Translations under genes and position numbers: made by a program | Source of the DNA: a virus | DNA length: 25,284 bases | Direction: 5' to 3' (one strand) | Virus record (IMG/VR): IMGVR_UViG_3300037155_000213 | Coordinates: 1-25,284 of that record | The notes under the pieces: model-generated | Database searches by the model: none | What the model was told of the DNA's origin: nothing | Seen by the model: the letters and a program-made list of their open reading frames with translations, nothing else | In this document: piece after piece, positions 902-19,162 of the stretch | Numbering within the stretch: the stretch's first letter is position 1 | Layout: each line of letters begins with the position of its first letter

Positions 902-1614
902 CGGACGTACGTCTTCCCGGTCGCGGAGCGCGTGCAGACCCAGCCCACAGTGCCGCGGTAGCTTGTGAGGATCCACGCGCCGCTGCGAGCGCGGACGCTC
1001 AGATGCGTGTGGATTGCGAGGCCGTCGACGAGGATCTTCGACAGTAGCGTCCGTGGCTTGGCGCGCATGCGGAGGCCGGGGACGACGACTTCCATCGTCG
1101 GCAGCGGCTTCGGCTTGGGAGCCGGGGCGGGAGCGGGCTTCGGCGCGGGCGGCGTGACCGGTGGCGCCGGCGGCACCACGGGCGGCTTCGGGGCGGCGGC
1201 CATGAACCCGCCGAGATGCGCGGTCTTGAGCCGCATCCAGATACCGTGGCGGGCCGTCACGCCGTTGTGTGCGTCGTTCAGGCGGTACTTCGGCGTGCCG
1301 TAGTCCTTGCCGCGTGCCTCGACCGTCCAGAGCGCACCGTGCGCGTCAGGGCCGAAGAACATGCCGATGTGGTGCGCATGGCCATTCGCGTCCAGCTCGA
1401 CGAAGTAGTCGCCCACCTCTGACGGCTTCGAGATCCTGACGCCCATGCGGTAGTAGCTGTCCGCGGTCACGCGCGACCTCACAAGGCCGAATCCCTCCGG
1501 ACCCATGACGTCGTAGAACAGCTCCGAGCAGTCTTCCTTCGCCCACGCGTACGGCTTGCCGACCTGAGCCGTGAGCAGCTTCTGTAGCTTCGCGCCGTTC
1601 GGTGTCAGTGCCAC
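898..1614 (-). CDS. Endolysin: NlpC/P60-like peptidase with C-terminal SH3-like domain
   Basis: A 238-residue lysis enzyme predicted to cut peptide bonds in peptidoglycan. The N-terminal half has NlpC/P60 hallmarks: GKPYAWAKEDCSE places the likely catalytic Cys at residue 29, and NGHAHHIGMFFG supplies the His (79-82). A Pro/Ala/Lys-rich linker (about 137-173) leads to an SH3-like domain (about 174-238, ending with TVGWVCTRS), a usual cell-wall-binding module. I chose the GTG at 1614 because GGGAGG lies six bases upstream and the previous gene stops at 1626; the longer ORF extends into that membrane-protein gene. No signal peptide is visible, so export through a holin is expected. The third catalytic residue was not assigned. 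Confidence 0.85.
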   Translation of the reverse strand: MALTPNGAKLQKLLTAQVGKPYAWAKEDCSELFYDVMGPEGFGLVRSRVTADSYYRMGVRISKPSEVGDYFVELDANGHAHHIGMFFGPDAHGALWTVEARGKDYGTPKYRLNDAHNGVTARHGIWMRLKTAHLGGFMAAAPKPPVVPPAPPVTPPAPKPAPAPAPKPKPLPTMEVVVPGLRMRAKPRTLLSKILVDGLAIHTHLSVRARSGAWILTSYRGTVGWVCTRSATGKTYVR

Positions 1615-1625
1615 TCCGCGCCTCC

Positions 1626-2009
1626 CTAGTCGGTGCCGCCTACTTCGATGTCCTCGGGCGCGATCTGTCTCTCGATGCGCCGGACGATGGATTCGATCTC
1701 TTCGCTGTTGCGGTACGTGGCCTCGCCGCGGGCGTCTGCCTTCTCCTGCTGGGCGGCTTGGCCGAACAGGATGATGGAGAGCAGTACGAGCTGCAGGAAC
1801 GTCTGCGCGACCCATCCGACGACGACCAGCAGGGAGCCGGATGCGACGGCGGCCGGAAGGCTGAGCAGGGCCAGCAGCGCGAACAGGTACGCGCACCACA
1901 TCGTTCCGACCGCGTTGGTGACGGCGAGCCCGATCCGGCGGTTGAATGCGCTGACGGCCGGCTCACAGTCGTGCCATGCGTCCAGGATGTCGCGCGGGTG
2001 CGTCGGCAT
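1626..2009 (-). CDS. Two-TM membrane protein, candidate holin
   Basis: A 127-residue protein with a soluble N-terminus (about 1-30), two hydrophobic segments (roughly 37-58 and 66-86, joined by a short turn) and a charged C-terminal tail. The motifs GTMWCAYLFALLALLSLP and WVAQTFLQLVLLSIILFGQ resemble a family of small two-TM proteins common in actinobacteria and their phages. Immediately upstream of the endolysin it is the best holin candidate in the window. The ATG at 2009 follows AAGGGG by about seven bases and lies just past the tail-hub stop at 2014. Holin function is inferred from topology and position only. Confidence 0.7.
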   Translation of the reverse strand: MPTHPRDILDAWHDCEPAVSAFNRRIGLAVTNAVGTMWCAYLFALLALLSLPAAVASGSLLVVVGWVAQTFLQLVLLSIILFGQAAQQEKADARGEATYRNSEEIESIVRRIERQIAPEDIEVGGTD

Positions 2010-2013
2010 GCGG

Positions 2014-3546
2014 TCACCCCTTGAGCGCGAGCGCGGGCGTGCCGAGCACGAGCTCGTCGTACAGGTCGCCGACCGTCCACGTGATCTGCTGGATGAGGTC
2101 CTGATACGTCCGGCCATCGCCCATCCCGGTGACGGCGACGAGCAGGCCCGGGCGCAGCGTTGCATCATGGTCGACGAAGATGCGGATCGACATACGCGGC
2201 TGAGCCCACTGGTCGAAGTAGGTGCTCGCGCACGCCTGCGCCTGTGCGGCGGTGGCAAGCGAGCTTGACGAGATGGCGAGTGAGCGCATGCCGTACTGCG
2301 CGATCGACGCGGCGTCTTGGAAGACCCACGTGTTGGACCCATACGTGATCACGAGCTGATTGACGACCCCGCGGGCGCTGTATGTGGGGTCGAAGCCTCG
2401 CAGCGTCACGTTCAGGGTGTACGTCTTGTCGACCGCGGTGCGGTACGGTTCGGCATTCAGGGTGTGCGTCGAGTCCAGCCAAAAGGTCATCCCGGAGAGC
2501 TGAGCAGCGGCCTTGATCGCGTCGGCACACGGCATGTTGCTGGTGTCGAGCGCGTACGCGGTCGGCGGCAGCGCGCCCGTCGTGACCGCGAAGTTGTCGA
2601 GATACACAATGGTCGTGGTGCCAGATTCGCCGCGCACACCGGCGATCCCTGGCGCGGTGATGACCGTGTCAGTGTCGCTGTGTACCTGCACGCCGTTCAC
2701 ATACGCAGTGAGCGCGCTCCCGATGACGCTGAACGCGAGCGCGTCACCAACCACGAGTGCATCGGAGAACGCAGCCGAGGTCGACAGGGCGGTATAGGTG
2801 GCGCCGGTCTTGCGGTAGAAGACGACTGTTGTCGCGTTGAATATCGCCAGATAGAAGCTCGTGGTCGACGAGTAGCGCGCTACGATCCCAAGGTTCCCGG
2901 CGCTCCCCGCACTCGCGAGCATGACCTGTACGCACATGTCGGCGCGAGGAGTGAGCGAAGTGTTGACGTAGACGGCCTCTTGGCTGCCCGTGATCGAGAT
3001 CCGCATATTGCCGGACGATGCGCTGGCGCTGGCCGACCCGATCACCCGCGCCCATGACCCACTGAGCGATCCGGGGAATGCGTCGAGGAGAACCCGGAAC
3101 GGAATGTTGACCTTTGCCGCGTCCCACGCCCACTGAATGCCGGTCCCAGACGACGCGCGCTGATGCGCGACGGCGTCCGACATTACGAGATCGGCTGGCT
3201 GGCTGAGGGTTATTGATGCATCCATGGCCGCGCCGGGACTGGCCCCCAAGCCCAGCTCTCCGACGCACTTCACGTCGCAGGTCAGTTCCATCAGATGCGG
3301 CGTGTAATCGTCGACCACGTACGTCGCCAGCTTCGCGCCGTCTTCCCAATATTCGACGGTCGCAGCCTCGTCGATGATGCTCGCCAACGACGCCGGCGTG
3401 ACGCAGGCCAGCGTGAAGTCGAGGGATCCGACATCGCTCAGCACCTGCGTGCGAGTGAGCCGAGTGAACCCGCCAGTGGTGGCCGACGTGACATCGGTGT
3501 AGGAGCCGGAGCCGTGCTTGTAGATGCGCAGTGTCTCGGTAGCCAT
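2014..3546 (-). CDS. Tail hub / tail-tip protein with inserted concanavalin-like domain
   Basis: A 510-residue protein translated right after the tape measure (1-base gap). Residues about 1-120 and 325-510 look like the split tail-hub (gp27-like) fold of siphophage tail-tip proteins, with phrases such as GSLDFTLACV, VEYWEDGAKLATYVVDDY and, near the end, TWTVGDLYDELVLG. Between them, residues about 153-324 (starting LLDAFPGSLSGSW, ending IVYLDNFAV) read as a LamG/concanavalin-like jelly roll, a common carbohydrate-binding insertion. No separate distal tail protein or fibre gene follows before the lysis genes, so this may be the whole tail tip. The hub assignment rests on position and general pattern; the jelly roll is the more secure part. 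Confidence 0.75.
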   Translation of the reverse strand: MATETLRIYKHGSGSYTDVTSATTGGFTRLTRTQVLSDVGSLDFTLACVTPASLASIIDEAATVEYWEDGAKLATYVVDDYTPHLMELTCDVKCVGELGLGASPGAAMDASITLSQPADLVMSDAVAHQRASSGTGIQWAWDAAKVNIPFRVLLDAFPGSLSGSWARVIGSASASASSGNMRISITGSQEAVYVNTSLTPRADMCVQVMLASAGSAGNLGIVARYSSTTSFYLAIFNATTVVFYRKTGATYTALSTSAAFSDALVVGDALAFSVIGSALTAYVNGVQVHSDTDTVITAPGIAGVRGESGTTTIVYLDNFAVTTGALPPTAYALDTSNMPCADAIKAAAQLSGMTFWLDSTHTLNAEPYRTAVDKTYTLNVTLRGFDPTYSARGVVNQLVITYGSNTWVFQDAASIAQYGMRSLAISSSSLATAAQAQACASTYFDQWAQPRMSIRIFVDHDATLRPGLLVAVTGMGDGRTYQDLIQQITWTVGDLYDELVLGTPALALKG

Positions 3547-3547
3547 G

Positions 3548-5182
3548 TCAGCGCCGACCGGTGCGGCCGGCGTCTGTGGTCACGATACCCAGCGCACGCG
3601 AGACCTTGTTGCCGTCGAGGTTGGTCACGACGCCGTTGCGCTCCAGGCGCTCGAGCACAGCGAGCAGGCGCGCGTTGACGCTGCCGGCGGACGCACCGGA
3701 GCCTCCGAACGACCCGGCTCCCGCGTACGCGACGCTCGGCATCCCGCCGATGACCGGCGCGCCGATCTTCATGCCGCCCAGCTTGCCGTAGTGCTTCGCG
3801 ATCTCGGCCGCGCCCGCGATGACGTTGTCCACGAGCGACGGGGAATGACGCTGGAACGGGTTCAGGTTCCCGAGCACCTTCAGCGCCTCGGTGACCGGCC
3901 CCATGATCATGGCGCCAAGGTTCTTCAGCGCGTCGAGTGCGCGCTGCGGCAGGCTCGCGATGAAGCCGACGATGGTGTCGATGCCCTTCTTGCAGAACGC
4001 GACCGCGCCGTCCCACATCTTCTTCAGGAACGGGCCGATGACGTCCCAATGCTTGGCGATCAGCAGCGGCACGCCGATGAATGGGACCATGACCGCGAGG
4101 ATCTCCGTGCCCCACTTCGCGAAGAAGGCCTTGAGTCCGGCCCACAGCTTGCCGAAGAAGGCCGTGATCTTCGACCAGTTGGCGACGACGAGGTACACGG
4201 CGCCGGCCACGAGAGCGATGCCCGCGATGACGAGCGCGATCGGCCCCAGGGTGGCGACCCACGCGATACCGGCGGCGATGGACTCAGCGGAGAGGGCGGC
4301 CGTAAGAAGGCCGAACCCGGCCACGATGGTCGGGAGCACCCCGGCGAGCATCGTCAGCGCGCCACCGAACACGAGCACGCCCGCTGTGATGGCCGCCCCC
4401 ATGCCGACGAAGTTCTTCATCTCAGGTGAGAGCTTGTTGAACCACTGCAGCACGCCCGCGAGCCACTTCTCCGCGAGCGTCTTCAGCGGCAGCATCATCA
4501 GCCCGAGCTGGACGGTGAGTCCCTTCGCGGACTCCTCGTTGTCCTTGACGGCGGCGTTGTACGCCTTGCACGCGTTGACCTGGTCCTGCGAGAGGATCAG
4601 GCCGTTGCGTTCCGCGCTCGCGGTGATGTCGTCGATGCCCGCCTTGCCGTTCGCGAGTATCGGCAGCAGCGACAGGTAGCCCTTGCCGAGCACCTTCGCG
4701 GCCAAAGCGGTGGCCGCCGTCTTGTCCGTGGCCGTCGAGTAATACTGCGCGAGGTCGGCCAGGACGGCTTGTGCGCTTCGGTTGTGGCCGCTCGCGTCCT
4801 GCGTGGCGATGCCGGCGGCCTTGAGCGCCTTACTCTGGCCGACGATGGCCGTGTCCAGCGACTTGATGATGCGCCCGGCGCCGGTCGCGTCCACGCCGTA
4901 TCTGCCGAGGATGGCCGCCCACTTCGACGACTCCTCGGCAGAGGCTCCGGTCAGGCGCTGCACGGTCAGGACCTGGGACCCGTATGCTGCCGCGGCGTCC
5001 CCCGCGGAGTTTAGCGCCGCAGCGATCGCGACTCCGGCTCCGACCGCCGCGGCGCCACCGGCGACCATGCCCATGTTCGCCTGCGCGCCGTCGATGTTCT
5101 TCGACGCGGACGCGAGGCCCTTCTGAGTCTCGTCCTTGGCGCGGAGGATGATTTCGAGGATGCGCTGGTCGACTCCGGCCAT
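3548..5182 (-). CDS. Tape measure protein
   Basis: A 544-residue protein that sets tail length and is ejected with the DNA. It has an Ala-rich helical N-terminus, long hydrophobic segments in the middle (about 255-340), Trp/Lys-rich repeats such as FFGKLWAGLKAFFAKWG, and the C-terminal NPFQRHSPSLVDN motif seen in many siphophage tape measures. Following the tail tube and frameshifted chaperones and preceding the hub is the canonical place. It is short for the family: at the commonly used 0.15 nm per residue the tail would be roughly 80 nm. The ATG at 5182 lies 4 bases past the chaperone stop. Confidence 0.9.
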   Translation of the reverse strand: MAGVDQRILEIILRAKDETQKGLASASKNIDGAQANMGMVAGGAAAVGAGVAIAAALNSAGDAAAAYGSQVLTVQRLTGASAEESSKWAAILGRYGVDATGAGRIIKSLDTAIVGQSKALKAAGIATQDASGHNRSAQAVLADLAQYYSTATDKTAATALAAKVLGKGYLSLLPILANGKAGIDDITASAERNGLILSQDQVNACKAYNAAVKDNEESAKGLTVQLGLMMLPLKTLAEKWLAGVLQWFNKLSPEMKNFVGMGAAITAGVLVFGGALTMLAGVLPTIVAGFGLLTAALSAESIAAGIAWVATLGPIALVIAGIALVAGAVYLVVANWSKITAFFGKLWAGLKAFFAKWGTEILAVMVPFIGVPLLIAKHWDVIGPFLKKMWDGAVAFCKKGIDTIVGFIASLPQRALDALKNLGAMIMGPVTEALKVLGNLNPFQRHSPSLVDNVIAGAAEIAKHYGKLGGMKIGAPVIGGMPSVAYAGAGSFGGSGASAGSVNARLLAVLERLERNGVVTNLDGNKVSRALGIVTTDAGRTGRR

Positions 5183-5186
5183 GGGA

Positions 5187-5435
5187 TCACCCCGGGTTCA
5201 GGTTGTAGATGTGTTCGGCCTCAGCGCCGCCGAAGATGACGAAGTACGCGTAGACGTCCGCGCGCTGATCCAGCAGTCCGCCCGGATCCGGAAGCGCGCC
5301 GAGGTTCTTCGCCATGAAGTAGAGGCCGATGAGCCGCGCGATCTCCGGCGCGGCCGCGAGCGCGTTACTGGGCGGCGCCGTTGGCGGGCTCGACAGGCAG
5401 CTCAGCATCAGGCGCCGGGCCTCGCGCGCTGGCAT
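5187..5435 (-). CDS. Tail assembly chaperone, frameshift extension (gpT-like part)
   Basis: An open frame overlapping the end of the gpG-like gene, +1 relative to it, and ending 4 bases before the tape measure. The ATG at 5435 lies deep inside the upstream gene and has no well-placed ribosome site, so the product is probably a fusion made by programmed frameshifting, as for lambda gpG/gpGT. A plausible slip site is CCC-G at 5388-5385: Pro-tRNA can re-pair from CCC to CCG. That would give 156 residues of the first frame plus 65 of this one (221 total). The extension contains GALPDPGGLLDQRAD, a pattern typical of such C-terminal parts. The exact slip site, and +1 rather than -2, are inferred. 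Confidence 0.7.
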   Translation of the reverse strand: MPAREARRLMLSCLSSPPTAPPSNALAAAPEIARLIGLYFMAKNLGALPDPGGLLDQRADVYAYFVIFGGAEAEHIYNLNPG

Positions 5436-5853
5436 CAGACGGGATGGCCGCCTCCCACACCGACTTGACCTGCTCGTCGACCCACGCCGATGACACCGGG
5501 TCCATGTCGCCGTACTGCCTGATGACCTGCTCGCCGCCGATGTTCTCGCTGTTGATGAACATCCGGACGGCGAGCGCCTTGAGGCGGAACTCGCGCACCT
5601 TCACCGAGTCCGGAGCGTTCCTGACGTTGGCCTGCGCCTTCTTGAGCGCGTCGGGATCCTTCTGCGCGTCGGCGAGGATCTTGTCGGTGTCGACCCCGGT
5701 CGCCTTGAGCCGGTCCATCTCGGACATGGCCTCGTCCCGCGCGATGATGTCGCACGCGTTCACGTCGCGCTGCCGAGGGGCAGAGAGCAGCACGAGCTTG
5801 TCGCCGTCCGAGTCGGTGAACTCGACGGTGTCGCTGTCGCGGATGACTCTCAC
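5365..5853 (-). CDS. Tail assembly chaperone (gpG-like)
   Basis: A 162-residue soluble, highly charged, mostly helical protein located between tail tube and tape measure, where siphophages encode the chaperone that coats the tape measure before tube assembly. It starts with a beta-rich segment (VIRDSDTVEFTDSDGDKLVL), followed by helices, and ends in a Pro/Ala-rich tail that overlaps the next frame. The ATG at 5853 is 14 bases past the tail-tube stop and is preceded by an AGGAGG-like site (CCAGGAGGCGTCAGTG). The assignment rests mainly on gene order and on the overlapping downstream frame; sequence conservation in this family is low. Confidence 0.8.
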   Translation of the reverse strand: MRVIRDSDTVEFTDSDGDKLVLLSAPRQRDVNACDIIARDEAMSEMDRLKATGVDTDKILADAQKDPDALKKAQANVRNAPDSVKVREFRLKALAVRMFINSENIGGEQVIRQYGDMDPVSSAWVDEQVKSVWEAAIPSDASARGPAPDAELPVEPANGAAQ

Positions 5854-5866
5854 TGACGCCTCCTGG

Positions 5867-6829
5867 CTAGGTGTTGATGGTCGCGATCGTGTTCTGCGCC
5901 TCGACGAGGATCTGGCGACTGGTCGCGGTGTCGTAGAAGGCGGCGAAGTTGCCTTCTCCGGTGACGACCGCTTCCGCGATGTCGTTGTCGAAGCCGCCGG
6001 TGTACTGGCACGCGGGCAGCGTGACGCGCAGGAACTTCTGGTAGGCGTGCGAGATCACGTCGCCGTCGAGCTCGACCACGAGCGCGAACTGCGAAGCGCC
6101 GATGAGTCGCGTGAGCTCCGCAGTCGGGAAGTCGATGAACTTGATCTTGCCGGTGGCGTCCGGCGCTTCCTTGGAGCGGATGACGTGCGGAGCGCCGGAC
6201 GCGGCCTCGATCGTCGGCGGCGCGTCGAGCTTGTTGTCGAAGCTGATCTCGAAGTTGTCGATCGTCGTGTCCGCGGACCCCGCGATCTTGATGGTCGCGG
6301 AGCGCACGGTGAGCACGTCGGTCGTGTACACCGGCGTGGAGGTGAACGTCGCGCCCTCGACATGCGTCAGAGCGAACCACTCGATCTGGAGATGCGCGAC
6401 CTCGCCCACCTGGCCGAGGAGCGTGATCTTGTTGATCTTGACGTCCGCCTGCCGCGACTTCGCATACACCTTGTCGCCCTCGCCCGTGAGGTTGACCGGG
6501 TCGGTGTCGGTGATGGTGTGCAGGTAGACGGTCGGGTCGGTGCCGGACGCGGGCTGCGATGAGACGACGTTGCCGAGCGCCCAATACCACGGGTGCGGCG
6601 TGGACGCCATGACCTCGCACAAGCACTTGCCCTCGGGCTTTGTGTAGCCCTGGCGCATGGGAAGGTTGCGCCCGGTCCCGATGAAGGACTTGCGGACGAT
6701 GTGCGTCGGCTTCGCGTTCATGCCGAAGTTCTCGGTCGGCAGGAACGTCGTGACCGTGGTCTCCGCCGTCCCCGCGACCGCCTGGGGCTTGAAGCCGAGG
6801 GTTTGCTTCGCGCCGAGAGCGTTAGGCAT
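5867..6829 (-). CDS. Major tail tube protein
   Basis: A 320-residue beta-rich protein that should polymerise into the tail tube. The N-terminal pattern (GTAETTVTTFLPTENFGMN) and the alternating hydrophobic strands resemble the larger siphophage tube proteins. Its place after the terminator and gp10-like genes and before the chaperone pair is standard. The ATG at 6829 overlaps the stop of the preceding small gene by 8 bases (ATGCCTAA), so translation is probably coupled. A cell-adhesion (Ig-like) extra domain, common in tube proteins, is not obvious here. Confidence 0.85.
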   Translation of the reverse strand: MPNALGAKQTLGFKPQAVAGTAETTVTTFLPTENFGMNAKPTHIVRKSFIGTGRNLPMRQGYTKPEGKCLCEVMASTPHPWYWALGNVVSSQPASGTDPTVYLHTITDTDPVNLTGEGDKVYAKSRQADVKINKITLLGQVGEVAHLQIEWFALTHVEGATFTSTPVYTTDVLTVRSATIKIAGSADTTIDNFEISFDNKLDAPPTIEAASGAPHVIRSKEAPDATGKIKFIDFPTAELTRLIGASQFALVVELDGDVISHAYQKFLRVTLPACQYTGGFDNDIAEAVVTGEGNFAAFYDTATSRQILVEAQNTIATINT

Positions 6830-7019
6830 CGCTGTCTCCTGTCGTGTCGATCGCGGGTTCCTTCACGTACAGCCGGCCGCCGATGACCAGCTCTCCTGCC
6901 TGTTCGAGAAGCGCCGCGTGCTCCGGGCTGAGTCCGGGCATGGAAAGGGCCCCGGCATCGGGGCCCTGCGTCTGCTCTGTGGCCGCCACCTCGGGCGGGG
7001 CGTCCTTGTCCTTCACCAT
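6822..7019 (-). CDS. Small acidic hypothetical protein in tail module
   Basis: A 65-residue acidic protein with a charged, Pro/Ala-rich N-terminus and a short hydrophobic/beta patch (AGELVIGGRLYVKEPA). I prefer the ATG at 7019, six bases after AGGAGG; a GTG at 7022 is also possible but sits only three bases after it. The start overlaps the gp10-like stop and its end overlaps the tail-tube start, so it is translated within the same chain. I do not recognise the family; small genes at this spot are common in siphophages. Confidence 0.65.
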   Translation of the reverse strand: MVKDKDAPPEVAATEQTQGPDAGALSMPGLSPEHAALLEQAGELVIGGRLYVKEPAIDTTGDSDA

Positions 7020-7483
7020 CACGCGCCTCCTGTCTTGAGTTCGTGCATCACGTCGTCGAGGATCCGGCGCAGCTCCCGGACCGCCTCTTCCTTCTTGGCC
7101 GCGAATCCGGGGTAGAAGAACGCGTACCGGCCACCGAACAGTGGGTCGAACTCGAGACGCTTCCCGTAGCGGTAGCCCTTGTACTTCGATGCCTTGCGCT
7201 TCGTGCCCTTCGCCACGGCCGTGTTCACGACGCGCACGCTCATGTCGCCGGGTCGGACTCGCGTGGACTCCTCGAGCTTGTGGGTGGCGCCTCGAGGCGT
7301 GCGCTTGCGGATCTCGACGGCGATGATCTCGCCCGCGGGCTTCAGGCGCTTGCGGATGCTCGAGCGCGCTTCCTTGCCCGCCCCGCGGATCGCCGCCGAT
7401 ACCGCCTTCGCTTCGGGAGCCGAGAGCAGGAAGCTGCTTTGTCCGCTGCTCGTCTTGGGAGACGAGTTGCGAAACGCGCTCAC
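7019..7483 (-). CDS. HK97 gp10-like neck / tail-completion protein
   Basis: A 154-residue basic protein (GTG start at 7483 in a GTGA overlap with the previous stop). The pattern AIRGAGKEARSSIRKRLKPAG, followed by KRTPRGATHKLEESTRV and RYAFFYPGF before a C-terminal helix, is characteristic of the HK97 gp10-like family, which helps complete the head-tail joint. It lies between the terminator-like gene and the tail tube. No oddities were seen apart from the high Lys/Arg content, which is usual for the family. Confidence 0.8.
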   Translation of the reverse strand: MSAFRNSSPKTSSGQSSFLLSAPEAKAVSAAIRGAGKEARSSIRKRLKPAGEIIAVEIRKRTPRGATHKLEESTRVRPGDMSVRVVNTAVAKGTKRKASKYKGYRYGKRLEFDPLFGGRYAFFYPGFAAKKEEAVRELRRILDDVMHELKTGGA

Positions 7484-7959
7484 GCGGTCAGCCTCGCCAT
7501 GACGGAGTACGTCTGCATGACCGAAGCCTCACGCGACGCGCCGGACAGGAGAGCGTCCTGTTCGTGTGAATCGGCAGGAAGGCACGAGGACACCTGCCAG
7601 CCGTCACCTGACGCCAGCGGGCCTCCTGAGAGGTTCCACGTGCGGATCGACTCGTCTACCGCATCCGCCAGCGCGTATGCGCGCGCCTCACGTGCGGGAG
7701 TATCGTTCGCGACGGCGCCGACGACGCTGACGAGCACCTCGAGGTCGTACGTCTCGTTGGCTGCCGTCATGCCCGCGACGAACGCCTTCTTACGGTTCGC
7801 CACGTTGCCGACGACCACGAGCTCGCCTGACTCGGACAGCGGATACGGGTTGCCCCACGTCACCATCAGGTCGGGGCCGGTGATGTTCGGGTCCGCGCCT
7901 AGGCGTGCGAGCAGGGCCGCCTTGAATCCCGGCACCGATGAGCGCATGGGCGTGGCCAT
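7480..7959 (-). CDS. Tail terminator-like protein
   Basis: A 159-residue protein read after the connector. After an N-terminal helix (PGFKAALLARLGADP) it has strands typical of tail-terminator folds, including TYDLEVLVSVVG, and a helix EARAYALADAVDESIRTW that resembles the conserved C-terminal helix of lambda gpU/SPP1 gp17-like proteins. Such proteins cap the finished tail tube and join it to the head. The ATG at 7959 leaves a 1-base gap to the previous stop; a second ATG four codons further in is possible. Assignment is from pattern and gene order; sequence similarity in this family is weak. Confidence 0.65.
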   Translation of the reverse strand: MATPMRSSVPGFKAALLARLGADPNITGPDLMVTWGNPYPLSESGELVVVGNVANRKKAFVAGMTAANETYDLEVLVSVVGAVANDTPAREARAYALADAVDESIRTWNLSGGPLASGDGWQVSSCLPADSHEQDALLSGASREASVMQTYSVMARLTA

Positions 7960-7960
7960 G

Positions 7961-8839
7961 TCAGTACACCCCGAGGTTGCGGTTATACGGCTGGAACGCG
8001 CGGTGAGCCGAGAGCGGGATGTCCCACGTCTGCGCGATGCCGGCGGAGATCTGGCGCGGGGCCTGCGAGTCGATCGCGGAGATGTCTGACACCGGCTTGC
8101 TCAGCCACGACAGCACGCATTCGACGGCGGCCTCCTGGATGTCGTCCGGGACGTCCGCGACGGTGTCCCAGATGCCCCAGTCTCCCGTGACCTCGATCTG
8201 CTTCATGCCGAACCGGCGCGAGAAGTCCGATTCGATCGTGAGCGCGGCCGAGAGCTGGATCTCCTCGAACGTGCCCGTGAGGCGGCACGGCCGCAGGATG
8301 TAGTCGACACCGGGCGTCAGCGTGCGCGGAGTGCCGTTCGGGTCCAGCACAACGCTCGTGGCACTGCGCAGGTCGGAGGCGACGAGGTCGATGAGCCGGT
8401 GGTCGAAGTCGAAGGTGCGCGTGCCGGTCGTGTGCGGCATGAACTCACAGCCGTACCGGGTGCTCACCTTCGGAAGGACCGTGGTGATGAGCTGGTCGAT
8501 CGTTGCATCCTGCGCGATCGTCGTGATGAGTGAGCGTGCCTTGACCTGCTGGCGCGTGCACAGCGCGGCACCGATGCCATCCAGGACGACGTACCGCTCC
8601 ACGACCGTTCGGATTTGCGCGGCAGCCCGCATGTTCCACCGGAACTCGAGCGTGTGGCCGACAAGGGCCGCCGGGATGTCCGCCGACTCCACCGTCATCG
8701 CCCATGCGGCTCCGGACAGCACGGGCTGCCCCAAGTCGAGCGTCGCGCCACCGTCCGAGACGATGAGCGCCAGCTCGTCGATCGTCACGTCGGGAGTGAA
8801 CGTGACCTGCTGCGTTGATTCCGCGATCAGGTAAGGCAT
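7961..8839 (-). CDS. Head-tail connector (adaptor) protein
   Basis: A 292-residue protein. Residues about 80-292 fit a head-tail adaptor: an N-terminal helical bundle (CTRQQVKARSLI, QLITTVLPKVSTRYG), beta segments, and the typical end of a helix in a DWG-led stretch (GDWGIWDTVADVPDDIQEAA) rich in helices. The first 75 residues are a beta-rich extra domain (TFTPDVTIDELALIVSDGG) not usual for the family. I chose the ATG at 8839, which overlaps the previous stop by 13 bases; the longer in-frame ORF runs through the upstream repeat gene and looks like an artefact. It would dock under the portal and bind the neck. Confidence 0.75.
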   Translation of the reverse strand: MPYLIAESTQQVTFTPDVTIDELALIVSDGGATLDLGQPVLSGAAWAMTVESADIPAALVGHTLEFRWNMRAAAQIRTVVERYVVLDGIGAALCTRQQVKARSLITTIAQDATIDQLITTVLPKVSTRYGCEFMPHTTGTRTFDFDHRLIDLVASDLRSATSVVLDPNGTPRTLTPGVDYILRPCRLTGTFEEIQLSAALTIESDFSRRFGMKQIEVTGDWGIWDTVADVPDDIQEAAVECVLSWLSKPVSDISAIDSQAPRQISAGIAQTWDIPLSAHRAFQPYNRNLGVY

Positions 8840-10170
8840 GTCGCGCTCCCGTCCATGACGAGCGGTGTGCTGGCGCTGGACCCATCCGGCGTGATGGTGA
8901 TCTCCGTGACGCCGCCCGGAAGCGTCTCGACCGTCACGGTCCCGCTGATGTGCTGTCGATACTGCTCGCGCACCAGGGCGAACACGCCGCCGGAATGCAG
9001 CGCGTGGTAGCAGTCGTCCACCGCGGCGACGATGTGTCGCTGCCGGATCTGCACGTCGTCGGAGTCGAGAGCGAGCTCGCCATCGAACAGGGAGAGCAGC
9101 TTCGACGCCTGCGCGAACTGCTCGAGCGTCACGAGGTCGGACACGATCGCGTCGAACGCGTCGTTGATGGCCAGATGCTTGCCCTGCACGAGCGCGACGG
9201 TGTCCGAGGCCACGGCATGGACGGTGTTGTCCACGGCGAGCAGATCGTTCAGGTGGACGACCTGGTGCTGGACGAGGTCGGGCGACGAGCTCGTCAGCGC
9301 GTGCCATGCGACGGCCACCGCGACTACGTGGTGCTGCGTGATGGTGGGCGAGGCGCTGGAGACTACGTGCGTCGCTCCCGCGATCGCTACCTTGTGAGTC
9401 TGGGCGAGGTCAGCCGCGGTGCTCGTGACCGCGTGGGCGCTGCCGTCGACGGCCAGCCACTTGCGCTGGGTCAGGTTTGGGACGTCCGATGCCAGTGTAT
9501 GCGTGCTGCTCGCGATGAGGAGTGCGTGATGCTGGACAAGGCCTGGTGCGGTCGACGTGACGGCGTCGACCATACCGTCGACGGCAAGGATGTTGTGCTG
9601 GGCCAGCGCGACCGCGGACGATGTTGCTGCGTGCGCGGCGCTGTCGATCGCCAGTGTCAGCACGAGCTCGAACGTCACCGGATCGGCGTACGTCCATCCG
9701 CTCGGAACGCCTGCGGCCTCGGGGGCGACCCGGTACTGATACGTGGTCCCATCCGCGACCGAGTAGTCGTCGTATCCGGTTGAGCCCGCGGCTAGTGCGA
9801 ACCGCGTCCATTCGCCGAGCGTGACCACCCCTGAGACGACTCCGTGCCCAGCGTTGTCGACTGCCAGCGTCAGCACTGTCGGGACGACCAGCGTCAGGTC
9901 GTACGCCCACGGTCCGGTCGTCGCGTGCTGGGCAAGATCCGGCGCGTCCGACGCCAGCGCATGAGTCGCATTGTCGATCGCGAGCGCGCCGTGTGCCGTC
10001 AGGGTCGGATTTCCCGAAGTGACGGCGTGGGCCGCGCTGTCTACGGCCAGAGAGCTGCCAGTGTGCACGGTGAGTGCCATGTTGTCGCTGGCAAGCGCAT
10101 GGGCGGCATCCGCGACGGTGAGCAGACCCGCCTTGAGCGTCAGGTCGTACGCCCACGGTCCGGTCGCCAT
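8827..10170 (-). CDS. Virion-associated repeat protein with 22-residue repeats
   Basis: A 447-residue protein built mainly of degenerate 22-residue units, approximately L-A-V-D-x-x-x-H-A-V-x-S-x-x-P-x-L-x-Q-H-x-x (for example LAIDNATHALASDAPDLAQH). About a dozen units fall in two arrays (roughly 16-82 and 170-350), separated by a short FN3-like stretch (about 105-165). GPWAYDLTL occurs at residue 4 and again near 86. A His recurs at the eighth position of most units. The C-terminus (about 385-447) is non-repetitive. The ATG at 10170 leaves a 1-base gap to the previous stop. Similar His-containing repeats are, as I recall, found in other phage structural proteins. Between glycosidase-like and connector genes, it is probably a capsid or neck appendage; function unknown. 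Confidence 0.7.
   Translation of the reverse strand: MATGPWAYDLTLKAGLLTVADAAHALASDNMALTVHTGSSLAVDSAAHAVTSGNPTLTAHGALAIDNATHALASDAPDLAQHATTGPWAYDLTLVVPTVLTLAVDNAGHGVVSGVVTLGEWTRFALAAGSTGYDDYSVADGTTYQYRVAPEAAGVPSGWTYADPVTFELVLTLAIDSAAHAATSSAVALAQHNILAVDGMVDAVTSTAPGLVQHHALLIASSTHTLASDVPNLTQRKWLAVDGSAHAVTSTAADLAQTHKVAIAGATHVVSSASPTITQHHVVAVAVAWHALTSSSPDLVQHQVVHLNDLLAVDNTVHAVASDTVALVQGKHLAINDAFDAIVSDLVTLEQFAQASKLLSLFDGELALDSDDVQIRQRHIVAAVDDCYHALHSGGVFALVREQYRQHISGTVTVETLPGGVTEITITPDGSSASTPLVMDGSATCLT
9891..10166. repeat. Exact 30-bp direct repeat in the repeat-protein gene
   Basis: The 30 bases at 9891-9920 recur exactly at 10137-10166, 246 bases (82 codons) apart and in frame. They encode the duplicated phrase TGPWAYDLTL. 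The matching spacing suggests an internal duplication of the N-terminal unit, or conservation of a linker boundary. Confidence 0.85.
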
Positions 10171-10171
10171 G

Positions 10172-11518
10172 TCAGACCGCCTTGCGCTCGAGGAACCAGC
10201 CGTCTTCGCCACTCGCGGTGTCTGCCCATACGACCGCGATATGGTCGCGCGCGGACGTCGCCGCGAGTGTGGTGGAGATTCCGGCTTGGCTCACGATCGC
10301 TGCGGCCGAGGCGTTGTACTTCATGTTGGTGAGCGTCATCCCGTAGTCGGCGCGCTCGTATGGCGCGTTTGCCCCGGCGAGCATGTCGGTGATCGCGTTC
10401 ACCACGTACTCTGCTGCTGTGGCCGGGTGGGATGCGGCCAGTGCCCCGGCGATCCATCCTGCGGTGTAGAACCAGTAGCCGCCGTTCTGGTAGGTGCCCG
10501 CCGCGACCGCCAAGAAGAACGTCGACCAGTTGCCATCGGTGACCCTGCGTTGCCGGACCCCGCCGCGACAACCGGTCGCGAACGTGAAGAGGTCGCCCGC
10601 GCCGCCGGCTGCCTTGTCGAGCCCGTAGCGCCAGTTCAGCCAGTCGGAGGCCTGCGCGGTCTGCGTCGCGTTCAGGATCCCGCTACACACGGCGTATCCG
10701 GTGACGTCGGGTGACATGACATCGCTGTTGCCGCCGATGGTCCACTTCAGATAGCCGCCGTGTGCGTCGGTCGTGAACGTCGCTTGGATGGCCGACTGTA
10801 CCGCCGCGGCCGTGACGGCCCATGTCTCTTGGTTCGCGGCCCCGTTCGCGTGGCCGTACATGTCGGAGAGGGCGCGCGCCGCATTGCACGAGAGCACCGA
10901 GCAGCCGATGTTCGCGCCGGACAGGTTGATGCAGTCGAGGAATCCCCACGTTGTTGCGGGGCTGCTGCCGTACTGCGTCACGAGGTTTCCGGTGCGTGGA
11001 ATCGCGTTGTAGGCGTTCACTAGCGCGGTCGCGTTGGCCGTGAACCACGCCTGCCACGTCGCGTCCCAGGCGCGCGCGCTTCCGTACTGCCACGCGAGCT
11101 GCTGGACGATGACGTTGTTGTCCATGCTCGGCCGGCTGTTGAGCCGCCCGCTCGGGTTGATGCCGAAGTAGTCGCCCGGGCCCCATCCCACCTGTCCGCT
11201 TGCGCTCAGGTGGTCCGGGATGCTCCCGGCCGGATAGGTGCTGACCGAGGACGAGAGCTGCTTCGAGAGCAGCCAGTCGAGCATCCGGCGCTGGTCGGAA
11301 TCGCTGATGGTCGCGCCCGCCTCGAGCATGTAGAGCAGGTCGCGCGGCCAGAAGCCTCCGGCATAGCCCGGGCCCGGGTTGTAGTAGTAGCCGCCGCCGG
11401 TGTCCGTGATCGCATTGCGCGATGCCGCGACGATCGTGTCTCGCCGCGCAACGCCGTTCGCCGAGAGGGTGGCGTCGACCGGAACGGCTGCGGTCGAGAC
11501 CGCGTAGAGGTCTGCCAT
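10172..11518 (-). CDS. Six-hairpin glycosidase-like protein, probable virion-associated glycan hydrolase
   Basis: A 448-residue protein with the look of an (alpha/alpha)6-barrel glycoside hydrolase. GGFWPRDLLYMLEAG (55-68) recalls the W-x-RD segment of GH15-like and related six-hairpin enzymes, and further motifs at regular spacing (SRPSMDNNVIVQQLAW about 128-143; NPGPGYAGG; GYWFYTAGWIAGAL) fit successive helical hairpins. There is no signal peptide, as expected of a virion protein. It lies between two adhesin-like genes inside the head module, with 1- and 12-base gaps, so it is co-expressed with capsid proteins. A role in degrading a host surface glycan is plausible. Catalytic acids and exact family were not established. 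Confidence 0.6.
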   Translation of the reverse strand: MADLYAVSTAAVPVDATLSANGVARRDTIVAASRNAITDTGGGYYYNPGPGYAGGFWPRDLLYMLEAGATISDSDQRRMLDWLLSKQLSSSVSTYPAGSIPDHLSASGQVGWGPGDYFGINPSGRLNSRPSMDNNVIVQQLAWQYGSARAWDATWQAWFTANATALVNAYNAIPRTGNLVTQYGSSPATTWGFLDCINLSGANIGCSVLSCNAARALSDMYGHANGAANQETWAVTAAAVQSAIQATFTTDAHGGYLKWTIGGNSDVMSPDVTGYAVCSGILNATQTAQASDWLNWRYGLDKAAGGAGDLFTFATGCRGGVRQRRVTDGNWSTFFLAVAAGTYQNGGYWFYTAGWIAGALAASHPATAAEYVVNAITDMLAGANAPYERADYGMTLTNMKYNASAAAIVSQAGISTTLAATSARDHIAVVWADTASGEDGWFLERKAV

Positions 11519-11530
11519 AGCGCCAGCCCC

Positions 11531-13108
11531 CTACAGTCCGTCTTGGATGTCGTCGAGCCACATGTTGAAGGCCGTGCCGCACTCGTAGCAGCCGGCCACG
11601 AGGTACTTGCTCGCCGACTTCCAGCCCGTGGTGATGCAGACGCTCGTCTTCGTTCCCAGCACTGTCGTGCCGTCTGAATCGTAGAGCGTTGTCGTGTACG
11701 TGCCGCGGTTGTCGGTACCGGTGTTGAGCGCGACCGTGACCTTGTACCACTTGTTCGCGGTCAGTGCGGAGGCGTAGACAGCCTCGTGGCTCCCCGCGAT
11801 CTGGTTCATCAGCTTTCCGAGGCCGACGCCTGTGTCGTACGCGATGGAGACTTCGATCGGGCCCCAGGCCGAAACCGCTTGGTCCGGCGCGAGGCCTATG
11901 ATCACGGCGTCTCGGCTCGTGACGGCGGGAAGCGAGTCGATGCGGAACCAGCGCGAGAAGTTGACCGTCGTCGAGTCCGCGCTCGGCATCGTCACAGGCT
12001 TGGTGAGCTTCGGGCCCCAGCCACTCGCCACGCCGGTCACCTTGCTCGAGTACGTGCCCGCGTGCGCCTGATCGGTGACGCGCGCGAAGGTGCCGTTGTA
12101 TGCCGAGTACGGCGTCTGCGCGACCTCGAAGGTGATGACGTTCGATGCCACCGCGGACACGATGGAGGATACAGCCGTCTCCACGCCGCTCACGACCGCC
12201 GTCACGGCGTACTTGTACGTCAGCGTGGCTGTCAGCGAAGAGTGGATATACGGAGAAGTCACGCCCGCGATCTTCGTGCTGGCCTTCGTCGGGTCGGTGC
12301 CGTCGCTCGTCCAGTAGAGGTTGTACGATGACGCTCCCGAGACCGCATCGAACGCGACCTTGTTCGCGAGGTAGTCGATCGCGACTGCCGTGACGTTCGC
12401 CGGTGGGGAAGCCGCGGCAGCAGGCGTCGCAACCGCGCTCGCCGCGCTCCAGGGGGAGGCTCCGGTCGCCGCGTACGCGCGCACCTGGTAGTAATACCCG
12501 GTGCCGTTCGCGGGCGCGTTCCCGCCACCCGTGTTGTTCGTGTACGCGTTCGTGCCACACGCGGTCGTGAGCACCACGAGGTTCGCGCTCATGCCGCTGT
12601 CGGTGGCGCGCCGGACCTCGTAGCCTGCCGCACCTGAGATCGCGGACCATGCCAGCGCGACCGAGGCGTCTCCGGCGGTGGGCGTGACGGTGCCGACCTG
12701 CGCGACTCGTGTGCCGGCCGCCCATTCGAGCGCGCCCACGGTGAGCGCCGCCGAGGTCGAGGCCGCGAGCTCCGTCTGCTTCAGGTAGACGGGCTGGTTG
12801 CCGCCGATGCACTTCACGCCCACGTCCAGCGGAGAGCTCGTGAACGTGCCGTTGTACGTGGCGCACACCTGAAGATGCGCGGGCGGCGTGAACACGGTGT
12901 CCGTCACCGAATCCTGCCCGGGGTCGTCCCCGGTCGTGTCGTCGATCGCGCGGAAGTAGGCGGTGTACACGGTGCCGACCGCAGGCAGCACGAGCGGGGA
13001 GACGCCGGAGATGGACACGAGCGTGCCCGTGCGCAGGCCCGTCTCGGAGTTGGCGCCCCCAGACTCTATGCCGCTGGCCTTGAAGAACAGGCCACACTTG
13101 TTCGCCAC
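11531..13108 (-). CDS. Virion protein with two FN3 domains and C-terminal jelly roll
   Basis: A 525-residue protein. Residues 1-130 form a beta-rich N-terminal domain, possibly the capsid attachment. Residues about 138-229 and 236-325 are two fibronectin type III-like domains (VALAWSAISGAAGYEVRRA, GYYYQVRAYAATGASPWS; then VAFDAVSGASSYNLYW, YKYAVTAVVSGVETA). Residues about 326-525 resemble a concanavalin-like jelly roll (VNFSRWFRI, KWYKVTVAL, MWLDDIQDGL). FN3 and jelly-roll modules are commonly glycan- or surface-binding in phages. It follows the small capsid-associated gene and precedes the glycosidase-like gene, suggesting a decoration or appendage of the head. The ATG at 13108 is preceded by GGGAGGC. 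Confidence 0.75.
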   Translation of the reverse strand: MANKCGLFFKASGIESGGANSETGLRTGTLVSISGVSPLVLPAVGTVYTAYFRAIDDTTGDDPGQDSVTDTVFTPPAHLQVCATYNGTFTSSPLDVGVKCIGGNQPVYLKQTELAASTSAALTVGALEWAAGTRVAQVGTVTPTAGDASVALAWSAISGAAGYEVRRATDSGMSANLVVLTTACGTNAYTNNTGGGNAPANGTGYYYQVRAYAATGASPWSAASAVATPAAAASPPANVTAVAIDYLANKVAFDAVSGASSYNLYWTSDGTDPTKASTKIAGVTSPYIHSSLTATLTYKYAVTAVVSGVETAVSSIVSAVASNVITFEVAQTPYSAYNGTFARVTDQAHAGTYSSKVTGVASGWGPKLTKPVTMPSADSTTVNFSRWFRIDSLPAVTSRDAVIIGLAPDQAVSAWGPIEVSIAYDTGVGLGKLMNQIAGSHEAVYASALTANKWYKVTVALNTGTDNRGTYTTTLYDSDGTTVLGTKTSVCITTGWKSASKYLVAGCYECGTAFNMWLDDIQDGL

Positions 13109-13151: not shown

Positions 13152-13565
13152 CTAGGTCGGATTCGCGATCTCGATCTTCCACGCGGGGAAGTCGACGGTG
13201 TTGCCGGACGTGAGTGCCTGGCCGGTGCCGGTGGTGACATAGAGCAGCACGGAGTTGACCGTGTCGACCAGCGCCACGCACGCGAACGTGCCCGACGCTG
13301 TCACGGACACGCCGGTCTTGGCGCCGACGGTGACCTTGCGCCCGGACGTGTCACCAGCCGCCAGCGCGAAGTCGGTTCCGGCCATGGCCACGGATGCGAG
13401 CGCGTAGGTGGCGTTGGCCTCGGTGAAGGTCGCGGGGCTGTTGCCGGACCCGTTCACCGAGCAGGCGATCATCTTGTTGCAGGGTCCGAGCCCGGTCACG
13501 CCCGTCTTGATGACGTTGAGCGCGCCATCGAGAACGCCGGTGTTGATGGTCTTCGTAGCGGCCAT
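13152..13565 (-). CDS. Small capsid-associated (decoration-like) protein
   Basis: A 137-residue beta-rich protein with small residues dominating (Ala, Thr, Gly, Val). I chose the ATG at 13565 (MAATKTINTGVLDG), which follows GAGAGGA by about nine bases; the longer ORF reads back into a hairpin region. Size, composition and position just after the major capsid and a coiled-coil gene suggest a head decoration or minor head protein, but no specific family was recognised. The upstream gap holds two strong overlapping inverted repeats, so its expression may be set separately from that of the capsid. Confidence 0.65.
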   Translation of the reverse strand: MAATKTINTGVLDGALNVIKTGVTGLGPCNKMIACSVNGSGNSPATFTEANATYALASVAMAGTDFALAAGDTSGRKVTVGAKTGVSVTASGTFACVALVDTVNSVLLYVTTGTGQALTSGNTVDFPAWKIEIANPT

Positions 13566-13600
13566 GATGTGGTTCCTCTCGATGGTGGTGAGCGGGCTTC

Positions 13601-13669
13601 GCCCCCACAGCGCACGGATCACGTCGGTGCGCTGTGGGGGCGGCGCTGACCTCGAGGGCCAGCGCCGCC
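13601..13669 (-). promoter_or_regulatory. Two overlapping strong hairpins in a late-operon gap
   Basis: The 112-base gap between the coiled-coil gene (stop at 13678) and the decoration-like gene (start 13565) holds two inverted repeats. One is a perfect 15-bp stem (13601-13615 with 13627-13641, 11-base loop). The other is a perfect 10-bp stem (13639-13648 with 13660-13669, 11-base loop). They share 3 bases. Neither is followed by a T-run on the minus strand, so a mRNA-processing, stability or attenuation element is more likely than a classical terminator. Confidence 0.65.
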
Positions 13670-14019: not shown

Positions 14020-15366
14020 CTAGAACGTCGGGACGACCAGGCCGGTGCCGCTGATCGTGGAGATCGCGGCCGGGTAGCGGCCCGCGGTGAACGCGGAGTA
14101 GCCGTACAGCACGAGCTTGGTGGTGAGGTTGCCGCCGAGCGTCTGCTCGAAGCGAGCCGTGCGCGGCGTGCCGTCGCCCTCTTCCCACAGGAGCAGGTCG
14201 GCCGCGCGGTAGGCGACCATGACGTCCTGGTTGGTGCCCGTGCCGAGGTTGGTCGCGATGTTGGCGTCCGAGGTCACGGGCTGACCCTGGAGGATGCCGA
14301 CGTTGCGGCCGTACGCCGCGGCCGAGCCGAGACCGGCTGCGTCCGACGCCTCAGCGAACGGGGCGCCTGCGACCGGGACGACCAGCGGACGGCTGTGCGC
14401 GTCGAGAGCGGCCGTGAACCAGCCCCAGCGGCGCGGGTGGCACAGGAAGGTGTCCGCGGGCAGGTAACGCTTGGACGCGACCTGCTGCAGTGCGTCGGAC
14501 AGCTTCGGGTAGATCTCGGCGACGGTCGGGGAGGCCGACGTGTACGTCACGGCGTTGATGTTGGCGGTGGCCAGCATCGCCGCGAGGTACTTCGCGTCGA
14601 GCTTGGTGGCGTAGTCGAGCAGGAGGTCCTGGAAGATCAGCTCGTCCATGCCGGGCGTGCCGCGCTCCATGAGCTGGCGGGAGACGTCCTGCTGGCCGGA
14701 GATCGTGTTGACGCTGACCGGGAGCAGGGTGTCGTCGACGTCGGTGGAGCTGACGGCGGTGTTCTCCGTGTCCTGGCTGGCGGTGGTGCTGCCGGTGGTC
14801 AGCCGCGAGATGTTGAAGACCATGCCCTCGGCCGGGAGCGGCAGGTGGCGGCAGGTGTCCGCGAACGGACGTCCGGCGCGCGCCATCGGCGCGTAGAGGT
14901 CGACGAGGTACTGCGGGACGACGAGGCCGGAGAACGCGGAAGTGCCGGCCGCACGCTGGGACGGCGCGAGGTCCGCCATCTCGCGAGCGTTGCGCGTCTG
15001 GCGCTCGGCCGCGGCGCGATCGCCCTGGAACTGCGCAGCGTACATGTCACCGAAGAAGCTGACCTGCGTGCTGTTGTCGCGGCGGTACGTGGCCGGCTCG
15101 TGCACTTCGACGCGGGCGCCCAGGGCCTCGCGCTGCGCGGGAGCGGGCACGTCGACTTCGACGAACATGCCGACGGCCGACGCGCGGTGCTCGGCGGCGT
15201 CGAGGTTCGCCTTGGTGCGCTTGGCCTCGGCCTCGACCTCGTCGAAAGCCGTGCGCAGGGCGTCGAGATCGGCGCCTTCGGCCGGGTTCTCGCATGCCTC
15301 GGCAGCGGCGCGAAGAGCGACGACCGCGGCGTTGAATGCGATGCGGAGCTCGTGCATGTGGATCAC
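14020..15366 (-). CDS. Major capsid protein (HK97 fold) with N-terminal delta-like domain
   Basis: A 448-residue protein. Residues about 4-65 form a charged coiled coil (RTAFDEVEAEAKRTKANLDAAEH) expected to act as scaffold and be removed by the prohead protease. From about residue 135 the HK97-like shell follows: SAFSGLVVPQYLVDLYAPMA, the DTENTAVSSTDVDDTLLPV strand region, a spine helix (TPGMDELIFQDLLLDYATKLD) and the A-domain (FLCHPRRWGWFTAALD). The GTG at 15366 overlaps the protease stop (GTGA), close behind AAAGGA; an ATG at 15357 (MHELR) is an alternative. The protease upstream also begins MHEL, perhaps coincidentally. The cleavage site was not identified. Confidence 0.9.
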   Translation of the reverse strand: MIHMHELRIAFNAAVVALRAAAEACENPAEGADLDALRTAFDEVEAEAKRTKANLDAAEHRASAVGMFVEVDVPAPAQREALGARVEVHEPATYRRDNSTQVSFFGDMYAAQFQGDRAAAERQTRNAREMADLAPSQRAAGTSAFSGLVVPQYLVDLYAPMARAGRPFADTCRHLPLPAEGMVFNISRLTTGSTTASQDTENTAVSSTDVDDTLLPVSVNTISGQQDVSRQLMERGTPGMDELIFQDLLLDYATKLDAKYLAAMLATANINAVTYTSASPTVAEIYPKLSDALQQVASKRYLPADTFLCHPRRWGWFTAALDAHSRPLVVPVAGAPFAEASDAAGLGSAAAYGRNVGILQGQPVTSDANIATNLGTGTNQDVMVAYRAADLLLWEEGDGTPRTARFEQTLGGNLTTKLVLYGYSAFTAGRYPAAISTISGTGLVVPTF

Positions 15367-17668: not shown

Positions 17669-19162
17669 CTACCAGGTTTCGGCCCACGGTTCGCTCCCGG
17701 GTTCGTTGTCCTCACGCCAGCCGATCAGCGCCATCGCGAGGGCTATGCAGGCATCGTTGTTCTTGCTGAGGTCGCGGTTGCCGCTCTTGGTCTTGGCCTT
17801 GACGAAGCGCCAGCCGCCGGTCGGGGTGACTTCACCCGCCGTGCCGAGCACCTGTGAGCGGAAGTCCCGATCGCCGTCGTGCACGATCTGGCCGTTGTTG
17901 ATGAGGTCGAACGTGAGCTGCGACGCGGGAACCATCTTCACGGCCTGCTGGCTGCACTCCTGCATGGGGTAACCCTCGGCGGAGAGCACCGCCGCCATGT
18001 CGTCCAGGTGCCACTTGTCGTAGTTCACGCGCCGGAGCTGGTACGTCTTGCCGAGGCGTCGCAGTTCGGCTTCGATGAGCGGGGCCGCTGTGGCGCGTCC
18101 CTCCGGGGCCACGAAGATGCTCGCCCCGACGCGCACCTTGCCGTTCGGACGTGGGCACGCCCAGGCGATCGCTCCGGTGTCGCGCAGGCCGCCGTTGTCG
18201 ACGCCGACCCAGATCTCGGACTTGGGCGGGATTGAGCCGGGGACCATGCAGGCGTCCCACGCGGCCGGCTGGATCGCGGCGTCGTCACCCTTGACCCACT
18301 GGTTCAGGTACAGGCGCCGAAACACGCTCTCGGGTTCGCGGTGCGCGGCCAGGCGAAGGTTCTCGTCGGTGATCCAGGATGCCGGGTTGCACGCGCGCCA
18401 GACAGCGGGGTCGGTCACGTCCGCGTCTTCCGGCGCTCCGTACCAGATGAGGAGAGACTTGCCCTCTTCGTCGCGGCCGATCGTCAGACAGTCATGCTCG
18501 CGGTACTCGAGCACGTGCGTCTTGATGATCGCGTCGTACTTCTCGCCCAGCAGCGAATCCTTGTCAGGACCAGCCGTGGTGATGGTGAACATGACCGAAT
18601 CGGGACGCTTGTGCAGCGTCGTGGTCTGCGAGTAGTAGAGCTCCTCTTGCTTGCCGGTCGTGAACGCGTGCAGCTCGTCCACGATGATGACGCTCGGGTT
18701 CCGGCCATGTTGCAGGAGGCCGTCAGCGGAGAGCGCCTTCATGATCCCGTCGTTGCTCGGGCAGGTGATCGGCCCCATCGCCTTGCGGGACCGGGGAAGT
18801 TCTATCCAGTCACGCAGCGGGCCGTCGTTCACCATGTCGTAGGCGAACCCGTGAACGACGTGTGCCTGTTCTTTGGCCGCCGCGCAACAGTGAACGGTCG
18901 GCGTGCCGGTGCCGGACAGTATCTCGTAGAGCGCGAGTCCGGCCGTGAGGGGCGACTTGCCTTGGCCGCGCGGGATCCCGATGAGGACCTCGCGCCAGAT
19001 CCGGTGGCCGTCCGCGTCGACCTCGTACACCAGGTCCAGCATGTCGCGCTGCCACTGGTCGAGGATGAAGGGCTGACCCTTCTTCTCGCCCTCGGTGATG
19101 ACGATGTTGCCAGCGAAGAAGTCAGCGACCGCAGGACCGAGCGTTCCTGTGGCCTGTGTCAT
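17669..19162 (-). CDS. Terminase large subunit
   Basis: A 497-residue DNA-packaging motor. The ATPase part shows Walker A GIPRGQGKS (62-70) and Walker B VIIVDE (158-163). The C-terminal nuclease (RNase H-like) starts with the strand IWVGVDNGG (Asp322) and ends with a late acidic motif, NNDACIALAMAL. The ATG at 19162 overlaps the small terminase stop in an ATGA junction; the longer in-frame ORF extends through the small subunit in another frame and is not credible. With the adjacent HNH nuclease and the P27-type small subunit it forms a packaging set often linked with cohesive ends. Confidence 0.93.
   Translation of the reverse strand: MTQATGTLGPAVADFFAGNIVITEGEKKGQPFILDQWQRDMLDLVYEVDADGHRIWREVLIGIPRGQGKSPLTAGLALYEILSGTGTPTVHCCAAAKEQAHVVHGFAYDMVNDGPLRDWIELPRSRKAMGPITCPSNDGIMKALSADGLLQHGRNPSVIIVDELHAFTTGKQEELYYSQTTTLHKRPDSVMFTITTAGPDKDSLLGEKYDAIIKTHVLEYREHDCLTIGRDEEGKSLLIWYGAPEDADVTDPAVWRACNPASWITDENLRLAAHREPESVFRRLYLNQWVKGDDAAIQPAAWDACMVPGSIPPKSEIWVGVDNGGLRDTGAIAWACPRPNGKVRVGASIFVAPEGRATAAPLIEAELRRLGKTYQLRRVNYDKWHLDDMAAVLSAEGYPMQECSQQAVKMVPASQLTFDLINNGQIVHDGDRDFRSQVLGTAGEVTPTGGWRFVKAKTKSGNRDLSKNNDACIALAMALIGWREDNEPGSEPWAETW

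Follow-up and report, generated by a model that had tools for sequence, protein, structure and literature searches.

A six-hairpin glycosidase-like gene in a phage late operon: member of an uncatalogued family and candidate glycan-cleaving virion enzyme

What does a six-hairpin, glycosidase-like gene do in the late operon of a phage? The great majority of known phage depolymerases are beta-helical or beta-propeller proteins, and an earlier note on this DNA had proposed a six-hairpin enzyme as a virion gene without giving a strand. The DNA, here called the window, is the whole of a 25,284-base virus record from IMG/VR and has 67% GC. The frame in question lies on the minus strand, occupies exactly 10172..11518 and encodes, from an ATG start, a protein of 448 amino acids that includes GGFWPRDLLYMLEAG. 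At the base composition of the window, a random frame of this length has a chance of about 3e-5 per start. An AGGGGG ribosome-binding site precedes the ATG, which lies 12 bases past the stop codon of the upstream gene, the TGA directly abuts the ATG of the next gene, and another phage encodes a relative with about 40% identity. The frame is therefore a real gene.

The late genes of the window are all on the minus strand, and the glycosidase gene sits among them, downstream of the capsid gene and upstream of the head-tail adaptor. Upstream are the terminase small subunit (19671-19159), the terminase large subunit (stop at 17669), the portal (17410-16148), the protease (ending at 15363) and the major capsid protein (14020..15366; phrog_2263, 2e-51), which is 33-40% identical to mycobacteriophage capsids. 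A small gene without a family match (13152..13622), possibly, at a guess, a decoration protein, separates the capsid gene from an upstream partner gene (11531..13108) that combines an fn3-like region with a C-terminal beta-sandwich and weakly matches SO2946-like_C. Downstream come a repeat-rich gene (8827..10170) whose ATG stands straight after the glycosidase stop, the head-tail adaptor (phrog_442, 5e-13; 7961..8884 is an upper bound of the frame, with the start codon likely slightly downstream), the tail tube (6829-5867) and the tape measure (5182-3548). Exact peptide patterns from the window terminase retrieved no relatives from the viral contigs searched. The slot between capsid and connector genes holds an O-methyltransferase and glycosyltransferases, non-structural-looking enzymes, in the related phage Courthouse, and little or nothing extra in Bipper and prophiGD43A-5.

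Several further features of the window were seen along the way, in genes or frames of the minus strand. Two overlapping frames between the tail tube and the tape measure (5187-5853) fit a tail assembly chaperone made by programmed frameshifting. The downstream gene at 8827..10170 consists of diverged repeats around LAVDxxxHAVTS and contains a 31-base exact direct repeat (9890-9920 and 10136-10166, 246 bases apart) that encodes TGPWAYDLTL. The C-terminal residues of the glycosidase (HIAVVWADTASGEDGWFLERKAV; 10172-10250) resemble the opening half of a fibronectin-III domain. An apparent second half (GEWTRFALAAGSTGYDDYSVADGTTYQYRV; 9670-9830) is found in the downstream gene, in another frame and after the repeat block; the two halves may once have formed a continuous domain that an insertion has divided. 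A gene that runs off, or is cut short, at the extreme end of the contig (25078-25278) encodes leucine-rich repeats (LRR_4, E 4e-14), which are unusual in a phage.

Searched alone, the window protein matches nothing in Pfam, PHROGs or NCBIfam, no PDB sequence and none of 50,697 named phage records, and it retrieves no relatives from viral contigs. A scan of genome contigs yielded two Phycisphaerales proteins that are 26% identical to it. A profile built from these two homologues reached more Planctomycetota homologues and, once these were added, seven viral contigs, two of which (L015 and L016) are nearly identical. The family thus comprises, besides the window protein, six distinct phage versions and around twelve close homologues in Planctomycetota. 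With the phage members included, the profile scored strongly at 14 places when run against 298 genomes of the same class, and two of these places were in the genomes from which the search had started. Across six family versions, the glycosidase domain is unmatched in the 50,697 named phage records. In a tree, the window protein groups with L014 (100/100) and the phage members cluster, a pattern that falls short of proving one origin. Membership of the window gene in an uncatalogued family of six-hairpin, glycosidase-like proteins is well supported.

AlphaFold run on the sequence of the window protein alone gave a useless model (pLDDT 33). From ten aligned sequences it reached a pTM of 0.72 and a mean pLDDT of 63.6, with many core helices at 85-97, bearing out the repeated helical hairpins noticed earlier. 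The best PDB match of this model by Foldseek is the GH100 invertase InvB (E 2e-8), which VIA-align superposes with a Z of 29.5 and an rmsd of 3.6 over 348 residues. Among the matches listed by VIA, all 50 are six-hairpin enzymes, including members of GH100, GH116, GH94, GH63, GH37 and GH78 and a debranching enzyme, and matches in a viral structure library comprise giant-virus debranching enzymes and two unnamed proteins. Profile searches of PDB sequences reach GH78, GH94, GH100 and GH15-related chains. Profile-profile comparison by HHalign with GH100-like proteins gives 97.6% over 335 columns, or 91% over 138 columns when only the phage members are used, and one bacterial relative (L010) exceeds the Pfam cut-offs for MGH1-like_GH and Trehalase. 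A profile match to the phycobilisome linker CpcN (5.8e-9) was discarded because none of its separate stretches scores better than E 10. Structure search, PDB-sequence profiles and profile-profile comparison thus agree on a predicted (alpha/alpha)6 six-hairpin fold, which is well supported; a fold other than an alpha/alpha barrel, the outcome that the earlier note had named as fatal to its proposal, did not emerge. The window protein shows the features that characterise the six-hairpin superfamily: a modelled barrel of twelve helices, kinship to curated members and a putative carboxylate pair at the two catalytic positions.

That pair had gone unidentified in the earlier note, which called for a search of the barrel mouth. 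Conservation and alignment with GH94 and GH100 enzymes point to D195 and E388 as the most likely catalytic acids. D195, the proposed general acid, lies in a GFLD motif (10934..10936, minus strand), and its counterpart in alignments with GH94 chitobiose phosphorylase is residue 492. We take this Asp492 to be the general acid of that enzyme; a literature search returned no paper stating so. E388, the proposed general base, lies in PYER (10355..10357, minus strand) and is matched in GH100 InvA by the Glu of EYYD. The catalytic residues of InvA are given as Asp188 and Glu414 (PMC6995568), and E388 corresponds to residue 414 only if a one-residue offset of the crystallised construct is assumed. Two further motifs accompany the acids: WPRD (residues 57-60; 11339..11350, minus strand), which aligns with WxRD of a GH15-related isomaltose glucohydrolase, and YQNGGYW (residues 343-349; 10472..10492, minus strand), which corresponds to YHNGG.W of the GH100 invertases. 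All 16 aligned sequences, one of which is a GH100-like protein (L041), have D60 and D195, and 15 of the 16 have E388. The loss of central acids that the earlier note would have taken as a refutation did not occur. The exception, L018, probably has a neighbouring Glu in an equivalent context that is misaligned. The model has low confidence in both loops of the active site (residues 191-197 and from 382 on), leaving the spatial geometry of D195 and E388 unproven.

The setting of the domain in other phages bears on where such an enzyme might act. In L015 and L016, it ends a protein of 1,018 amino acids that resembles annotated tail fibres in its N-terminal part (37-38% identity). L015 has a tandem pair of tail-fibre genes (1371-9422) that start alike at the N-terminus, and only the second bears the six-hairpin domain. 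In L017, the domain follows an N-terminal region of phage type (phrog_25888), and its gene lies one small gene past the capsid gene; in L019, it is joined to a module that also occurs in Stenotrophomonas phage proteins annotated as pectate lyase or lectin domain; and in the phi29-like L020, the gene lies between the collar genes and the terminase, near the position that the appendage gene has in phi29. A late-operon position after the capsid gene is common to the window, L014 and L017. L018 is the exception, with the glycosidase gene adjoining a helicase gene and not structural genes. By sequence inspection, no signal peptide is apparent in the window protein, and the bacterial homologues L006 and L010 start with export-signal-like N-termini.

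Fold, kinship, conserved acids and genomic setting together favour, with a probability of roughly 0.6, a glycoside hydrolase of an uncatalogued six-hairpin family that the virion bears in order to cleave glycans, as a depolymerase or by trimming receptors. Such an enzyme would be inverting: D195 would serve as its general acid and E388 as its general base, and a glycosidic bond in a glycan of the host surface or matrix would be broken in a single displacement, within a pocket lined by the WPRD and YQNGGYW motifs. The neighbouring beta-sandwich gene would probably supply carbohydrate binding or attachment to the head. A place on the virion is suggested by tail-fibre fusion for L015 and L016 and by operon position for the window protein, in which no anchor domain was recognised; its beta-sandwich partner is the best candidate for that anchor. 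Given the conserved acid pair and the tail-fibre attachment in relatives from other phages, phages probably use the six-hairpin fold as a rarely recognised sugar-cutting tool of the virion.

A bolder form of this reading, which we consider considerably less probable, mounts the active glycosidase on the capsid, so that the head and not the tail carries the (alpha/alpha)6 enzyme, and has a beta-sandwich and glycosidase cassette exchanged between phages with different heads. L014, the nearest relative of the window glycosidase, carries the same two-gene cassette: its glycosidase gene is preceded by a homologue of the window's beta-sandwich partner (31% identity, 2e-17), and its head families differ from those of the window (capsid phrog_212, head-tail adaptor phrog_332). 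The shared cassette also speaks for the broader virion-enzyme reading. A search for more viral relatives of the partner's beta-sandwich domain found none further. A family-2 glycosyltransferase gene follows directly after the L014 glycosidase (L014:9605-10384), recalling the glycosyltransferases of Courthouse in the same slot. If true, a capsid-mounted glycosidase would amount to a glycan-processing capsid coat.

The observations that count against a virion enzyme, namely the helicase neighbour in L018, the non-structural-looking enzymes in the Courthouse slot and the missing recognised anchor, suit instead a late enzyme outside the virion that trims or processes phage or host glycans or is freed at lysis to degrade matrix glycans. 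The glycosyltransferase beside the L014 glycosidase fits this account too, but the tail-fibre N-terminus fused to the domain in L015 and L016 does not, nor does the binding-type phage module attached to it in L019, and we judge the account unlikely. Slightly less likely still is a six-hairpin domain that has lost its catalytic function and binds glycans without cleaving them, a capsid adhesin aiding attachment in the manner of Hoc or the phi29 head fibres. The proximity of the capsid gene and the lectin-like beta-sandwich of the partner would agree with such a binder, as would the carbohydrate binding of known phage head decorations (PMC7602432), but the acid pair and pocket motifs, needless for a pure binder, are kept across phage and bacterial members. 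An auxiliary metabolic enzyme of invertase, trehalase or debranching type, acting on cytoplasmic host storage sugars, is very improbable: neutral invertases, trehalases and debranching enzymes are among the closest fold matches, but identity to them is only about 10-16%, none of their Pfam families matches the window protein, the gene lies in a structural operon and its relatives are fused to fibre parts.

The virion-enzyme reading, if correct, adds to a sparse record. Of 984 phage proteins whose fold is one that degrades polysaccharides, DepoScope computationally classed 11 as alpha/alpha toroids; it excluded these toroids from its training and remarked that some uncommon folds have never been studied in phages (PMC11326577), while DepoCatalog demanded a predicted beta-helix (PMC13385381). 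The window family is probably not among the 11, since the glycosidase domain of six versions has no match in named phage records. The suggestion that a six-hairpin enzyme is a different phage solution therefore survives in part: the family is new, but given the earlier toroids (PMC11326577) the fold is not wholly so, and the family belongs to a kind already known, if rare and uncharacterised, rather than founding a new category. One apparent precedent, gp69 of Acinetobacter phage B9, described as alpha-helical in a review, was dropped on finding a pectate_lyase_3 domain in its GenBank record. Depolymerase searches often build on the prevailing folds and would then miss the six-hairpin family, which occurs in several dissimilar phages with its acid pair conserved and offers a concrete target and possible new glycan specificities. 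Enzymes on phage heads become a directly testable question.

Among known enzymes, the GH100 alkaline/neutral invertases (Anabaena InvA and InvB, Arabidopsis CINV) provide the best structural match and share the Y-x-NGG-x-W motif and the position of the C-terminal catalytic Glu. The window protein differs from them in its 14% identity, its diverged N-terminal half and its place in a phage late operon, and it has no Pfam match to PF12899 (GH100); its sequence suggests a protein that works like GH100 enzymes and is not a member of the family. GH15 (PF00723) gave no match even at E 10, while controls were detected. The MGH1-like/GH63 glucosylglycerate and mannosylglycerate hydrolases (PF22422) are similar to the window protein in size and fold, and their cut-off is passed by the bacterial relative L010 only (33.2 over 27 bits), with no match in the window protein or the other phage members. 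GH94 phosphorylases and GH78 rhamnosidases give profile matches around D195 and the following hairpin, but are multi-domain proteins with N-terminal beta-sandwiches that use different acid pairs or phosphate. The DepoScope toroid candidates represent the same broad fold class, likewise predicted on phage proteins. The beta-helical tailspike depolymerases share with the family a modular fibre or lectin-like attachment and a presumed cleavage of glycans, but their fold is wholly different, and the window protein would be expected to act as a monomeric alpha barrel and not as a beta-helical trimer.
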